From assembly GCA_021809525.1 (NCBI GenBank), contig JAKAYU010000005.1, positions 1 through 44,238 of the forward strand: 44,238 nucleotides of DNA, read 5' to 3'. This stretch comes from Pseudomonadota bacterium. GTDB lineage: Bacteria; Pseudomonadota; Gammaproteobacteria; Steroidobacterales; Steroidobacteraceae. Shown here one piece after another: positions 13,626-39,659 of the stretch (its first letter is position 1; the number at the start of each line of letters is the position of its first letter). Made by a program: the position numbers and the translations under genes. The notes under the pieces were generated by a model, which saw only the letters and a program-made list of their open reading frames with translations, was not told the origin of the DNA and did not search any database.

Positions 13626-14879
13626 ATGCAATTATACGCGGCCATGGCGTCGAAACAGATTCGCTGTGCCCGCCTTCTGCTGGCGGGCGGGATACCGGCC
13701 CTCCTGGCGGCCTGCGCGGCCACCCATGGGGCAAGCCGGCAGACGTTGGCTATGCCGCCACCGCCGAGCCCTCCGCCGGCCGCTGCCACGGCAGCGCCGC
13801 CGCCAGCGGCCGCGACGCAGCAGGCCACGCCGATCATCCGCCGCAGCGCTCCCATGACCTATACGGTCAAGCGGGGCGATACGCTCTGGGGCATCGCCTC
13901 GAAGTTCCTGCGCGATCCGTGGGACTGGCCCGAGGTCTGGTACCTCAACCCCCAGATCCACAATCCCCACCTGATCTACCCGGGCGACGTGCTGGCGCTC
14001 GCCTACGGCCGCAACGGCAAGCCCTCGATCCGCATCGTGCGCGCCAGCCCCCTGCGCGCGCAGGCGGGCGGGGAGCCGACTATCCGGCTAGAGCCGCATC
14101 TGCGCAGCAAGCCGATCACGGCGGCCATCCCCACCATCCCGTACTCGGCGATCGCCGCGTTCCTGGCCCGGCCTGTGGTGCTCACCGCCGGGCAAATCCG
14201 CCGCGCCCCGCACGTGATCGCCTTCCGCAACCAGCACCAGATCGCCGGGACCGGCTCGATCGCCTACGTGAGCAGCCTAGGCCCCCACCCGCACAGCCGC
14301 TACAGCGTGATCCACGTCGGGCGCAAGCTGCGCGAACCGGGCGACTTCGGCTTCGGGCACGTGTTCGGCTACCTCGGCACCTACACCGCCACGGCGGTGA
14401 TCACCGCCGACGGCCATCCGGCCACGGCGGTGCTGACTCACTCGGCGCGCGAAACGTTCCGCGGCGACCGCCTGATCGCCGCTGACACACGCGCGCCGCT
14501 CACGGTCGAGCCGCGCGCCCCCTCGCGCCCGGTTCGCGGCAGGATCATCTGGGTGGTCGGCGGCACGGGCGGCGGGGCGGACCTCGCCGGCCAGTACGAC
14601 ATCGTGGTCATCAACCGCGGCAGCCGCGCCGGGCTTGCTCCCGGGGACGTGCTCGCCGTCGATCACCACGGCTCGGTGGTGCACGATACCCATGGGACGT
14701 TCGCGTGGCTCTTGCACTCCCTCGGCTCGATGGGGCGCACGTTCTCCCCGCGCGTGAAGCTGCCCAACTATCGCGCCGGCACGCTGCTGGTCTTCAAGAC
14801 CTACCGTGACGTGTCGTTCGCGCTGGTGGTGGCCGCCTCGAACGTCATCAACGACGGAGACGTCGTCCACAACCCCTAA
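13626..14879 (+). CDS. LysM peptidoglycan-binding lipoprotein-like protein
   Basis: Signal/lipobox-like LLLAGGIPALLAACAA, LysM MTYTVKRGDTLWGIASKFLRDPWDWPEVWYLNPQIHNPHLIYPGDVLAL. Exact start uncertain (13584, 13626 or 13644). Confidence 0.85.
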   Translation: MQLYAAMASKQIRCARLLLAGGIPALLAACAATHGASRQTLAMPPPPSPPPAAATAAPPPAAATQQATPIIRRSAPMTYTVKRGDTLWGIASKFLRDPWDWPEVWYLNPQIHNPHLIYPGDVLALAYGRNGKPSIRIVRASPLRAQAGGEPTIRLEPHLRSKPITAAIPTIPYSAIAAFLARPVVLTAGQIRRAPHVIAFRNQHQIAGTGSIAYVSSLGPHPHSRYSVIHVGRKLREPGDFGFGHVFGYLGTYTATAVITADGHPATAVLTHSARETFRGDRLIAADTRAPLTVEPRAPSRPVRGRIIWVVGGTGGGADLAGQYDIVVINRGSRAGLAPGDVLAVDHHGSVVHDTHGTFAWLLHSLGSMGRTFSPRVKLPNYRAGTLLVFKTYRDVSFALVVAASNVINDGDVVHNP

Positions 14880-15733
14880 TCGGCGCCGCCGGCGCTGAGT
14901 TCGGCATTGCGCCCGGAGAGCGCCGCGAGCACCGGCGCGGTGAGCGGCCGCACGCCGCGCCAGAGCCGGAAGGACTCGGCCGCCTGCTCGACCAGCATCC
15001 CCCAGCCGGGCACTGCCCGGCGGCAGCCCAGCTCGCGCGCCCAGCGCACGAAGGCCGTATCGCCCCGGCCATAAGCCATGTCGTAACAGAACGTGCCGGC
15101 TGCAAATGCCGTCGCCGGCACCGCCGGCAGCTCCCCGGTGAGACTGGCGGAGGTTGCGTTGATGATGACGTCGAAGGCCTGCCCGGCCAGCTCGGCGAAA
15201 CCGCAGCCCTCGACCGCGCCGAGGCCCGCGAACACCGCGGCCAGCGCCACGGCCCGCTCGGCGGTGCGGTTGGTGATCACGATGCGCCGCGGCGCGAGCG
15301 CGATGAGCGGCGCGATCACGCCACGCGCAGCGCCGCCGGCTCCGATGAGCAGGATGCTGCGCTCCCGCATGCGTATGCCGAGGTTGACCGTCAGATCCTG
15401 CACCAGGCCGGCCCCGTCGGTGTTGTCACCGAGCAGCGTGCCGTCGCGGCGCGCTGCCAGCGTGTTGACCGCGCCGGCGAGCCGGGCCCGCTCGGTGAGC
15501 TCGTTCGCGAGCGTCATGGCGCGGGTCTTGTGCGGCAGCGTGATGTTCACACCCCGCCCGCCCGTGGCGAAGAACTCGCTCACGCGCTCGATGAACTGCT
15601 CCGGCGGGGTGTCCATCAGCCGGTAGCTCACCGCCTGTCCGGTCTGGCGCGCAAACAGCGAATGAATGAAAGGCGAGAGGCTGTGGGCGACCGGGTGTCC
15701 CACCACCGCATACTGATCCACTCTCCCTTCCAT
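14876..15733 (-). CDS. aroE: shikimate dehydrogenase
   Basis: YAVVGHPVAHSLSPFIHSLFARQTG, VNITLPHKTRAM, NTLAARRDGTLLGDNTDGAGLVQDL, LLIGAGGAARGVIAPL, NRTAERA. Confidence 0.96.
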   Translation of the reverse strand: MEGRVDQYAVVGHPVAHSLSPFIHSLFARQTGQAVSYRLMDTPPEQFIERVSEFFATGGRGVNITLPHKTRAMTLANELTERARLAGAVNTLAARRDGTLLGDNTDGAGLVQDLTVNLGIRMRERSILLIGAGGAARGVIAPLIALAPRRIVITNRTAERAVALAAVFAGLGAVEGCGFAELAGQAFDVIINATSASLTGELPAVPATAFAAGTFCYDMAYGRGDTAFVRWARELGCRRAVPGWGMLVEQAAESFRLWRGVRPLTAPVLAALSGRNAELSAGGAD

Positions 15734-15764
15734 GAATCGATTGTGCCCCTGCGCGCTGGCCCTG

Positions 15765-16613
15765 TCACCCCGGGCGCGGCGGGGAGAGCGCCCGCACCAC
15801 GATGCCGCCGTCCGCCGGCGCGCCGAGACGCTGGCACAGCTCCCCGAGCCAGCCCGGCATCGCCGCGTCGAGTTGGTACGGCGGGTTCGCGATCAACATG
15901 CCCGAGCCGTTGAGCGCGACGCGCGAGTCGCAGGGAAACAGCCGCAACTCGGACACGAGCGCGGGGCGCTCGATCCCGCGCGCCAGGGCGGCGAGCCACC
16001 GCTCGGTATCACGCGCGTCCTTCACCGGATACCAGATCGCCACAATCCCCGTCGGAAAGCGCCGCAGCGACTCGATGAGCCCCGCCCTGACCCGCTCGAA
16101 GTCCCCCCGGGTATCCTCGTAGGGCGGATCGATCAGCGTCAGCGCCCGCCGCTCAGGCGGTGGCAGCGCGGACCGCAGCCGCTCAAAGCCGTCGCCCGTC
16201 TCGATGCGGATGGCGGCAGGGCCGACGCTGTGCAGCGTGCGCCTGAGCGCGCGCGCCTCTTCGGGCTGGGCTTCCACGAACACGGCCCGGTCCTGCACGC
16301 GCAACTCGCTCGCCGCGAGCCACGGGGATCCGGGGTACTGGCGGTCCGAGCCGCCCGCCCGGCGCGACTCGACCACGCGCTCGAGGTAATGGCGCAGCTC
16401 GGGCGCGGCGCACGGCGCGCCCTGCAGGCGTGCGATGCCGGCAGCGGCTTCGCCCGCCGAACCGGCCAGATCGTACCGGCCGCGGCCAGCGTGGGTCTCG
16501 AGGTACAGAAAGCCCTTGTCCTTGCGCCGCAGCGCCCTCAGCAGGACCAGGAGCGTCACGTGCTTGTGAACGTCGGCAAAGTTGCCTGCGTGATGGGTGT
16601 GCCGGTACTTCAT
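15765..16613 (-). CDS. rlmJ: 23S rRNA (adenine-2030-N6)-methyltransferase
   Basis: MKYRHTHHAGNFADVHKHVTLLVLLRALRRKDKGFLYLETHAGRGRYDL, ALTLIDPPYEDTRGDFERV, IWYPVKD. Confidence 0.92.
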   Translation of the reverse strand: MKYRHTHHAGNFADVHKHVTLLVLLRALRRKDKGFLYLETHAGRGRYDLAGSAGEAAAGIARLQGAPCAAPELRHYLERVVESRRAGGSDRQYPGSPWLAASELRVQDRAVFVEAQPEEARALRRTLHSVGPAAIRIETGDGFERLRSALPPPERRALTLIDPPYEDTRGDFERVRAGLIESLRRFPTGIVAIWYPVKDARDTERWLAALARGIERPALVSELRLFPCDSRVALNGSGMLIANPPYQLDAAMPGWLGELCQRLGAPADGGIVVRALSPPRPG

Positions 16614-16623
16614 GCGCCGGCAC

Positions 16624-16995
16624 ACTAGCAAATCCCAGCAGGGGGCATACCGCGAGCCATCGACGAGCGGCCCTGGGGGAGGGCGCCACCCCGGGTGCAG
16701 CGGGCCCTCAGGGGTGCCCGAGTCCTCACGGGGGCGCATGGAGATGCGTTTTAAATCGTAAAATCAGATACTTATGCAAAATCCGCCGGCGCTTGGATTG
16801 GACAAGGAATATGAAATGCTGTTAGATGCGCTCGGTTTTGAGCCCGTGACTCCCGGCGCTCCCGCGGCCCACGCAGGCCGGTCGGGCGGATCCCTCGCCC
16901 CGATCGTGCCCGCTGCGGCGCAGCGGAGACGCCTCGCCCCTACTCCGGCGGCCGCTTTGGCCCAATCGATTCGCACTGACAGCTTGATTCAATGA
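16624..16995 (+). pseudogene. dprA: degraded 3' portion of dprA (DNA processing protein A)
   Basis: Frame of 16625 reads ...ANPSRGHTASHRRAALGEGATPG, resembling DprA NP.SRGCH.LIREGATPVE. A second frame (16774..16995) reads LDKEYEMLLDALGFEPVTPGAPAAHAGRSGGSLAPIVPAAAQRRRLAPTPAAALAQ, resembling the DprA winged-helix C-terminus. Stop overlaps the smg ATG as ATGA. No Rossmann-fold portion found. Confidence 0.6.
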
Positions 16996-17477
16996 CAACC
17001 GGCTGCGTCCTCGACGTTCTGATCTACGTTTACGACCACTACATGATGGCGGACCCGGCAGAGGTGCCGGCCCGCCGGCAGATCTTCTCCGCGCTCGCCC
17101 GCAAGGGCTTCACCGTCGGGGAGGTGGTCGAAGCGATGGAGTGGCTGTCGGTGCTGGCGGCGGGCTCACAGAGCGCCGCGGCGGGCGAACCGGCCGCCGG
17201 TCCCAGGGCCGTGCGGGTGTTCGCCGACGGGGAGTTGTGGCGGCTGTCGGACGAGTGCCGAGGCTTTCTCACCCGGCTCGACCGTGACGGGGTGCTCACG
17301 CCCGAGCAGCGCGAGCTGGTCATCGAGCGCACCCTGGCGCTCGATGTCGCCGAGCCGACGCTGGATCAGCTCAAATGGGTGGTGCTGCTGGCCCTGTCCG
17401 TGCAGCCCGCCGAGGACGCCGCGCTGGCGCGCTTCGAGGCGCTGATGGCGAGCGAAGGCAGGGTCGTGCGGCACTGA
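16992..17477 (+). CDS. smg: Smg family protein (DUF494)
   Basis: VLDVLIYVYDHYMM...RRQIFSALARKGFTVGEVVEAMEWL...RVFADGELWRLSDECRGFLTRLDRDGVLTPEQRELVIERTLAL; located upstream of topA. Confidence 0.92.
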   Translation: MTTGCVLDVLIYVYDHYMMADPAEVPARRQIFSALARKGFTVGEVVEAMEWLSVLAAGSQSAAAGEPAAGPRAVRVFADGELWRLSDECRGFLTRLDRDGVLTPEQRELVIERTLALDVAEPTLDQLKWVVLLALSVQPAEDAALARFEALMASEGRVVRH

Positions 17478-17493: not shown

Positions 17494-20058
17494 ATGGCAG
17501 AAAATCTGGTTGTCGTCGAGTCCCCGGCCAAAGCGAAGACCATCAAGAAGTACCTGGGCAAGGATTTCGAGGTGCTCGCCTCCTACGGGCACGTGCGCGA
17601 CCTGGTCCCCAAGGAAGGCGCGGTCGACCCCGAGCATGGCTACGCCATGCGCTATCAGGTGCTGGAGAAGAACGAGCGGCACATCGAGAGCATCGCCCGG
17701 GGCCTGAAGAAATCGAAGGCGCTGTACCTGGCGACCGACCCGGACCGCGAGGGCGAGGCGATCGCCTGGCACCTGAAGGAGATCCTGAGCGCGCGCGGAG
17801 AGCTCGACGGCAAGACCGTGCACCGCATCGTGTTCTATGAAATCACGCGCAACGCGATCCGCGAGGCGGTGGAGCGGCCGCGGGAGCTCTCGCTCGATCT
17901 GGTCAATGCGCAGCAGGCGCGCCGCGCGCTCGATTACCTGGTCGGCTTCAATCTCTCGCCGCTGCTGTGGAAGAAGGTCCGCCGCGGCCTCTCGGCGGGC
18001 CGGGTGCAGAGCCCGGCGCTGCGCATGATCTGCGAGCGCGAGGCGGAGATCGAGGCGTTCGTCGCGCAAGAGTACTGGACGCTCGACGGGGAGGGTGCGA
18101 GTGCGGCGGGCGCCGCCCGCGCGCCCTTTCCGCTGAAGCTCATCGAGTACCGCGGCCGCAAGGTCGAGCAGTTCTCCTTCACCGACGAAGCGGCCGCGCG
18201 CGAGGTCGAGCGCACCCTGCAGCGGGCAAGCGGCGCGCAGCCGGGCGCCGGGCGCTTCCAGACCCCCGGCGCGCTGCGCGTGCTCGCGGTCGAGCGCAAG
18301 CAGCGGCGGCGCAGCCCGGCCCCCCCGTTCACCACCTCGACGCTGCAACAGGAGGCGGCGCGCAAGCTGGGATTCAACGCCCGGCGCACCATGCGCCTGG
18401 CGCAGCAGCTGTACGAAGGAGTCGATCTCGGCGACGGCAACATCGGTCTGATCACCTACATGCGTACCGACTCGGTCTCCCTCGCGCAGGAGGCCGTGCA
18501 GGAGATCCGCGCGGTCGCCGCGCGCCTGTACGGCCAGGACGAGGTCGCCGAGGAGCCGCGCATCTTCAAGACCAAGTCGAAGAACGCGCAGGAAGCGCAC
18601 GAGGCCATCCGGCCGACCTCGGCGGCCGTGACGCCGGCGGATGTCGAGGGCAGGATCGACAACGATCTGTACCGGCTGTACGCGCTTATCTGGAAGCGCG
18701 CGGTCGCCTCGCAGATGGCCGTGGCGGTGTTCGACACCGTGGCGGCCGACATGCTTGCCGGCCCGGACGGCCCTGAGCGCCACGTGATGCGCGCGACCGG
18801 CTCGACGCTGGTCAAGCCGGGCTACATTTCCGTCTACCAGGAAGGCACCGACGACACCAAGGCCGACGAGGAGGACCACGCTCTGCCGCCGCTGCACGAG
18901 GGCGATCGGGTGGATCTGCTCGCGCTCACCGCCCAGCAGCACTTCACCGAGCCGCCGCCGCGCTACAGCGAGGCCTCGCTGGTCAAGGCGCTCGAGGAAC
19001 ACGGCATCGGCCGTCCCTCGACCTACGCGACCATCATCTCGACGCTGCAGGACCGCGAGTACGTGGAGATGGACAACCGACGCTTCATCCCCACCGACAT
19101 CGGCAAGATCGTCAACCGCTTCCTGACCGACCATTTCCACCGTTACGTGGAATACGGCTTCACCGCGGCCATGGAAGACGAGCTCGATGCGGTCTCGCGC
19201 GGAGAGGAAGTCTGGACCGCACCGCTCGAGAAGTTCTGGAAGCCGTTCATCCGCCAGGTCGAGCAGACCGAGAAGAACGTGACGCGCGAGCAGGTCGCGC
19301 AGGCGCGCGAGCTCGGCACCGATCCGGGGAGCGGCAAGCCGATCAGCGTGCGCATGGGGCGCTTCGGGCCGTTCGTGCAGATCGGCACCAAGGACGATGC
19401 CGAAAAACCGCGGTTCGCGGGTCTGCGCCCGGGGCAGAAAATGGACTCCATTACCCTCGCCGAAGCGATGGAGCTGTTCAGGCTGCCGCGCACCCTCGGG
19501 GAGACGGCGGACGGGGAGACGGTGGTCGCGAACATCGGCCGCTTCGGCCCGTACGTGAAGTACGGCAGCAAATACGTTTCGCTGAAGGAAGACGATCCGT
19601 ACACCGTGACCCTGGAGCGCGCGCTCGAGGTGATCCGCCTGAAGAAGGAGGCGGACGCCAACCGCATCATCAACGATTTCGGGGTCGACAATATCCAGGT
19701 GCTCAACGGGCGCTACGGACCCTACGTTACCGACGGCACCAAGAACGCCAAGATTCCCAAGGAGCGCGATCCGAAGTCGCTCACGCTGGAAGAGTGCCGC
19801 ACAATGCTGGCGCAGGCCCCCGCGCGCGGCCGCGGCCGCTTCGGGCGGGGCGCGGGCAAGCGCCGCGGCGGCGCGCCGCACCCCCAGGCTGCCGCCCCGG
19901 CCACGGCTGAGGCGCAGCCCCCGGCCCGTAAACCCCCGGCCAAGCGCGCCCGCGCCAAAGCTTCCGTGGCGGCGGCGGCCCCCGCGGCAAAGAGCCGCGC
20001 GCGCGCGCCGGCCAAGCGCGCCGCGAAGAAATCCACCCGGACCCGCGCCGCCAAGTAG
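17494..20058 (+). CDS. topA: DNA topoisomerase I
   Basis: Toprim [18 protein letters not shown]...[15 protein letters not shown], active-site [30 protein letters not shown]-terminal repeats and Lys/Ala-rich tail. Confidence 0.97.
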
Positions 20059-39077: not shown

Positions 39078-39659
39078 TCAGCCGCTGCATTCCAGTTCCC
39101 AGACGGTCAGCGGAGCGCCGCGACGCAGCCAGAATCCTGCGCCCACCTCGCGAAAATGGCGGCGCAGGCGGGTGCGGTACCACTCCCCGGTGCGCAGATG
39201 CACCTCGGAGTCCGTCCGGCTGCGGTCGCAGTTGATCTGCCAGTCGCGGCGGGTCAGCGCGCTGAAATACAACACGCCGCGGCATAGGCGGGCGAAATTG
39301 GCGAGCGCGCTCGCCGCCTCGCGCGCCTGCAGATACTGCAGCACGTCATAACAGATCACCAGGTCGAAGGGCGTTTCCGGCCGATAGTCCTGCAGGCGGC
39401 CGCTCTGCCAGCCGTAACGGCGGCAGAGGTATTCGCTCATTTCGAGCCCCACGTACGCGGCTTTCGGCAACGCCCGGCGCAGCGGCGCGCGCAGCAGACC
39501 GGTGCCGCAGCCGGCATCCAGAATGCGGCGCACCGGCAGGCCGATGTGCGCCGTGAAAGCGCCGATGAGCCGGGCGCGCGCCCGCATCTCGGCGCGCGAA
39601 GTCACCGCGGTGCGCGGATCGAAGTAGAAGCGCTGGTAGTACGCCTGATCGAAGCGCAT
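39078..39659 (-). CDS. class I SAM-dependent methyltransferase
   Basis: VRRILDAGCGTGLLRAPLRRALPKAAYVGLEMSEYL...FDLVICYDVLQYL. Confidence 0.85.
   Translation of the reverse strand: MRFDQAYYQRFYFDPRTAVTSRAEMRARARLIGAFTAHIGLPVRRILDAGCGTGLLRAPLRRALPKAAYVGLEMSEYLCRRYGWQSGRLQDYRPETPFDLVICYDVLQYLQAREAASALANFARLCRGVLYFSALTRRDWQINCDRSRTDSEVHLRTGEWYRTRLRRHFREVGAGFWLRRGAPLTVWELECSG

Follow-up and report, generated by a model that had tools for sequence, protein, structure and literature searches.

A conserved DNA element, probably a control site for smg and topA, within the 3' remnant of a deleted dprA in the Steroidobacteraceae

In the 44,238-nt stretch of DNA analysed here (the window, G000:C219 of a 3.57-Mb, 94%-complete Steroidobacteraceae MAG), a short DprA-like reading frame stands directly upstream of smg and topA, and the rest of dprA is gone. 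Why has this end of a lost gene persisted? The order dprA-smg-topA is widespread, and what it means for function has been described as an open question (PMC5817196). A comparison of this locus across the family shows that the remnant is what is left of the 3' end of a deleted dprA. We propose that it has probably been kept for an embedded element that would control smg-topA, the intragenic promoter or operator function being predicted from conservation and position. A literature search on intragenic topA promoters, on dprA pseudogenes and on competence in this family turned up nothing on this element.

What survives of dprA at the locus

The surviving part of dprA is a single piece of about 65-75 codons and is a real DprA 3' end (Table 1). 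Its 73-aa ORF aligns without gaps with intact DprA from the same genus, over the linker and the winged helix (e.g. ...MQNPQVPALDKEYEMLLDALGFEPVTFDTLAARSG...), with a Smith-Waterman score of 151 against the congener protein and of 62 for the best of 200 dinucleotide shuffles; the part of the remnant 3' of the invariant block described below scores 75 against 60, above all shuffles. The Pfam model DprA_WH (PF17782) matches residues 3-27 of the ORF (E=0.008), and its 16.6 bits fall under the cut-off of 22.9 because the 3' half of the remnant is degraded. The TGA of the ORF overlaps the ATG of smg (16992) as ATGA. The sequence-only reading of this region had named two peptide strings, both of which are in the sequence as written, and had taken them together for about 120 surviving, frameshifted codons of dprA. 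The second string, described as DprA-like and just 5' of smg-topA with the ATGA overlap, is confirmed by these scores and coordinates. The first ('NPSRG...'), which falls in the short interval 5' of rlmJ and had been read as a piece of the Rossmann-fold domain, is a chance resemblance: its best score against DprA was 37, the shuffle mean was 40, 155 of 200 shuffles did as well or better, and the frame has no Pfam match. A second, frame-shifted Rossmann fragment is unsupported.

Table 1. Features of the locus, in window coordinates.
Feature	Position	Strand	Remarks
rlmJ	15765..16613	-	Divergent; PF04378, E=1.1e-58; the deleted part of dprA began at its 5' side
'NPSRG...' frame	16625..16695	+	Rejected as a Rossmann fragment
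dprA 3' end remnant (linker + winged helix)	16774..16995	+	73-aa ORF, open in this genome; DprA homology
Bipartite DNA element	16798..16829	+	32 bp, inside the remnant
-35-like hexamer TGGACA	16799..16804	+	Putative; 5/6 to TTGACA
-10-like hexamer TTAGAT	16822..16827	+	Putative
smg (DUF494)	16992..17477	+	First gene downstream; PF04361, E=5e-39
topA (DNA topoisomerase I)	17494..20058	+	Constant neighbour of the element on its downstream side; protein search for it covered 150 family genomes

With homology, synteny, a disrupted gene and intact copies in relatives all found, the remnant is a pseudogene. It is homologous to the linker and C-terminal winged helix of DprA (PF17782) and occupies the syntenic place 5' of smg-topA, but it is without the Rossmann domain, its frame is broken or drifting, the DNA element alone is conserved in it, and it makes no working DprA. 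Nor is there a copy to be found elsewhere, as had been considered: the Rossmann-fold DprA domain (PF02481 / TIGR00732) is absent from the locus and from the whole 94%-complete genome, and PF02481 is likewise absent from the relatives G006, G020, G023 and G024. Another relative that has lost dprA at the smg locus, G001, carries a separate short DprA-like frame of 242 aa (G001:C2:31077-31637; L028).

Several members of the genus have an intact dprA directly 5' of smg, and the closest members are without it. The order in the dprA-intact congeners L068, L069, L070, L071, L074 and L075 is aroE-rlmJ (reverse), dprA, smg and topA, or the same without smg, and the deletion of dprA fell between rlmJ and smg. 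It had been supposed that rlmJ and aroE lie in place of the missing part of dprA. Both, however, stand 5' of the intact gene in the congeners G003, G014, G018 and G022, and since they precede it in these relatives they were at the locus before the deletion. The segment aroE-rlmJ (window 14876-16613) has moved within the family: many other genera and some congeners (L073) have it on the 3' side of topA and on the strand of that gene, and in the subclade of the window it is reversed and lies 5' of dprA.

The suggestion that DprA-dependent transformation was lost here, locally, does not stand. ComEC (PF03772) was absent in all 25 family genomes searched, at least 7 of them dprA-positive, in a search that gave a match in 10 of 14 control genomes; given this absence, dprA-positive members included, the loss of dprA cannot be read in this family as the loss of a working ComEC-type transformation. 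What DprA does in the ComEC-less members presumably lies outside transformation that depends on ComEC.

Conservation of a 32-bp element with and without dprA

Inside the remnant lies a bipartite element, TTGGACAA-N7-GAAATNCTGTTAGATGC, whose right box is also written GAAATGCTGTTAGATGC and whose spacer in this genome is GGAATAT. In the alignment the corresponding block TTGGACAAGGAATATGAAATGCTGTTAGATGC is identical or nearly so across the genus, in members with and without dprA, and the element is unvarying there, synonymous sites included. It is present in single copy in this genome, with no further match at up to 3 mismatches, and no second, regulon-like site was found in 12 genomes. A pattern scan across the order (296 genomes) gave 73 genomes with the element, every one of them from the window's family and with a single copy; the 15 other families had none. 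In a scan of the collection, the matches listed were Steroidobacteraceae, including Steroidobacter agaridevorans, plus MAGs with assorted titles, and among those listed smg and/or topA was nearly always next on the same strand.

Since the collection scan is biased by its own pattern, our claims on conservation rest on a sample anchored on topA. A protein search of 150 family genomes placed this gene in 142 of them; 99 of the regions upstream of it were then read, which with the earlier genus loci and the window made 114 regions. The element stands 5' of topA in 108 of them and in 24 of 25 genera, with 0-4 mismatches over its 24 fixed positions; in full-length regions the reversed control pattern came no closer than 8-13 mismatches. 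Of the six regions without the element, five (L268, L275, L277, L288, L299) are on contigs that stop short of its position or close to it, and in the sixth, the full-length L279 (g28, one genome), the element is truly absent, though dprA and topA are kept. The element shows few variants, with ATGGACAA in g20 and g24 and TTGAAT in place of TTAGAT in g22, g73 and g74. Upstream, the neighbour of the element may be dprA, rlmJ or LysM; downstream stands smg followed by topA, and in loci that have no smg (L073, L074, L075 and L361) topA comes next; smg is missing between dprA and topA in L279 as well. The partner that the element has in common across loci is topA.

In the intact dprA genes of 77 genomes, the strongest synonymous-conservation windows of the whole gene fall on the element block, where the excess homozygosity is 0.377 against a per-codon mean of 0.085 (sd 0.133). 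The codon TTA, which accounts for 3% of the Leu codons in these genes, reaches 86% at one position of the element. Where dprA has been lost, both boxes remain, still 7 bp apart, and the sequence of the spacer drifts (GCCCGGC, GCCGATT, CCCACGG and others). Within the window's dprA-less clade (10 genomes), the pairwise divergence of the element is 0.000 and that of its flanks 0.21-0.50, with frames that end at different places. The element is kept in 30 of 30 dprA-lost loci, including g33, in which the rest of the domain is unrecognisable; in several of these loci the end of the LysM gene now comes within about 60-270 bp of it. A tree built from segments of LysM, Smg and TopA (by a quick method, with some gappy rows) requires, by parsimony, 7 changes for the loss of dprA, at least 6 of them forced by well-supported branches. 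Two loci, L072 and L061, were assigned to the losses manually: L072 is a pseudogene interrupted by an internal stop, and L061 has the stub on a contig that ends 60 bp 5' of the element. For g25, g33, g70 and one genome of g26, the scoring of loss refers to this locus alone.

These comparisons demonstrate strongly that the element is conserved independently of coding. An intact 73-aa ORF under purifying selection was looked for in the relatives, where the frame proved instead to be broken in different ways; purifying selection acts on the 32-nt DNA element within the remnant. Its conservation beyond coding need and its constant position 5' of topA mark the element as putative cis-regulatory DNA of that gene, and the dprA stub has apparently been retained because of the topA control site inside it.

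Candidate functions of the element

The element would probably act as an intragenic promoter, or as a promoter with an overlapping operator. Transcription would begin within the dprA stub and run through smg into topA, the expression of topoisomerase I would thereby be independent of dprA transcription, and repeated loss of dprA would be tolerated, but only as far as the edge of the element. Two hexamers, assigned by eye, could serve as -35 and -10 sites. TGGACA is invariant in all the element-bearing loci and is separated from TTAGAT/TTGAAT by 17 bp, the classical promoter spacing. By the criteria for sigma-70 hexamers, the spacing and the final T of the -10 fit and the A at its second position is missing; a strict sigma-70 scan called no promoter at the element. 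GAAAT and CTG, between the hexamers, are likewise conserved, beyond the needs of a plain promoter, and this extra conservation suggests a bound protein, instead of or besides RNA polymerase. An AT-rich stretch 5' of the element (window 16740-16785; AAATCA-N6-TTATGCAAAAT) is partly conserved among the dprA-less relatives and could be an UP-element-like part.

The promoter proposal fits what is known of Neisseria meningitidis: dprA, smg and topA share a transcript there, a promoter has been predicted within dprA, and a dprA null mutant still produces TopA (PMC5817196). The gene order is the same, and in both cases topA is, or in the Steroidobacteraceae would be, expressed independently of dprA; the meningococcal promoter, however, is a software prediction in mid-gene, whereas here a specific conserved element, located by comparison, lies in winged-helix codons.

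Alternatively, the element may not be a housekeeping promoter alone: it could be the operator of a dedicated transcription factor, activating or repressing topA, or an alternative sigma site, which we consider possible, if on the unlikely side. Its 24 conserved positions outnumber those required by a sigma-70 promoter and are spread more evenly, the strict scan called no consensus promoter, and a precedent exists in Pseudomonas aeruginosa, in which NrdR activates topA through one box (PMC4409342). Like that box, which controls topA transcription, the element is a single site upstream of topA; unlike it, the element has no palindromic symmetry and is located in DNA derived from dprA. The NrdR consensus ACACWATATATWGTGT (Rodionov and Gelfand 2005, cited in PMC4409342) is unmatched, with 5-6 mismatches out of 14 at best, and so are those of LexA, Fur, CRP, FNR, ArgR, sigma-54 and sigma-32, all these patterns, that of NrdR included, having been written from general knowledge. 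Moreover, without another copy of the element in the genome, the protein would have a single target. It is a tentative idea, and an unlikely one, that some unrecognised regulator or alternative sigma factor of the Steroidobacteraceae acts at this element and nowhere else and is dedicated to setting the level of topoisomerase I; if true, the dprA coding sequence would conceal a private switch for supercoiling homeostasis, and sister families would have unrelated counterparts of it within the same domain of dprA.

The other readings fare worse than the promoter or operator. The remnant is clearly dprA-derived and still open over 73 codons in this genome, as a functionless pseudogene stub would be if its conservation came from recent loss or from shared coding ancestry. 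This explanation is refuted by the lack of divergence in the element when the flanks in the same genomes diverge, by its survival in every lost locus through about 7 losses, g33 included, and by the constraint on synonymous sites in the intact genes; only a sampling artefact common to all the assemblies could rescue it, and we hold it to be highly improbable. An even smaller probability attaches to the 73-aa ORF being a functional small winged-helix protein. Its open frame, its ATG and an overlap with smg that suggests translational coupling would agree with such a role, but frame, length or C-terminus vary among the relatives, with stops at different places; G006 and G090 are without an in-frame start codon there; and the older losses keep the DNA boxes and not the spacer that encodes KEYE. 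An overlapping leader ORF in the element (MKCC*) was also rejected, its ATG being destroyed by spacer changes in the older losses. Position about 160-270 nt 5' of smg, in sense orientation, would suit an element acting as RNA, be it a leader structure, a small RNA or an RNA-binding site in the smg-topA mRNA; Rfam, however, gave no match and folding was no better than that of shuffles (z = +0.67), which makes this very unlikely. Finally, single copy, strong conservation and a partial likeness to a XerD arm recall dif or another chromosomal site for replication or segregation, a reading to which we give next to no credence, because a separate dif-like site lies far off (at 1,730,045 in G072, with the element at 133,520; at 39,084 in G241, with the element at 2,161,120) and the element always tracks topA.

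A second block in a sister family, and what the element would mean

In the sister family f7 (30 loci, L363-L392, from G030 and its kin), the hot spot of synonymous conservation in dprA, with an excess of 0.47, is another block, GGATTGACGATYGANCAGSTTTCCTCCATGCT. It consists of the dprA codons for SGLTIDQVSSML and lies about 25 codons further 3' than the Steroidobacteraceae element. The two blocks share the DprA domain in which they lie, synonymous-site conservation and a position 5' of smg-topA, but they are unrelated in sequence. Because dprA losses are absent among the sampled f7 loci, coding constraint is inseparable from any other for the f7 block.

The persistence of a useless gene end would thus be explained by a neighbour's control site embedded in it. 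About seven independent losses of dprA, all of which stopped short of the same 32 bp, amount to a natural deletion experiment that tells coding from regulatory constraint where the two overlap in one sequence. Topoisomerase I, the product of topA, sets DNA supercoiling, and the gene is essential; our findings point to an uncharacterised control site for it. A topA control site embedded in dprA would give one concrete reason for the linkage of dprA, smg and topA.
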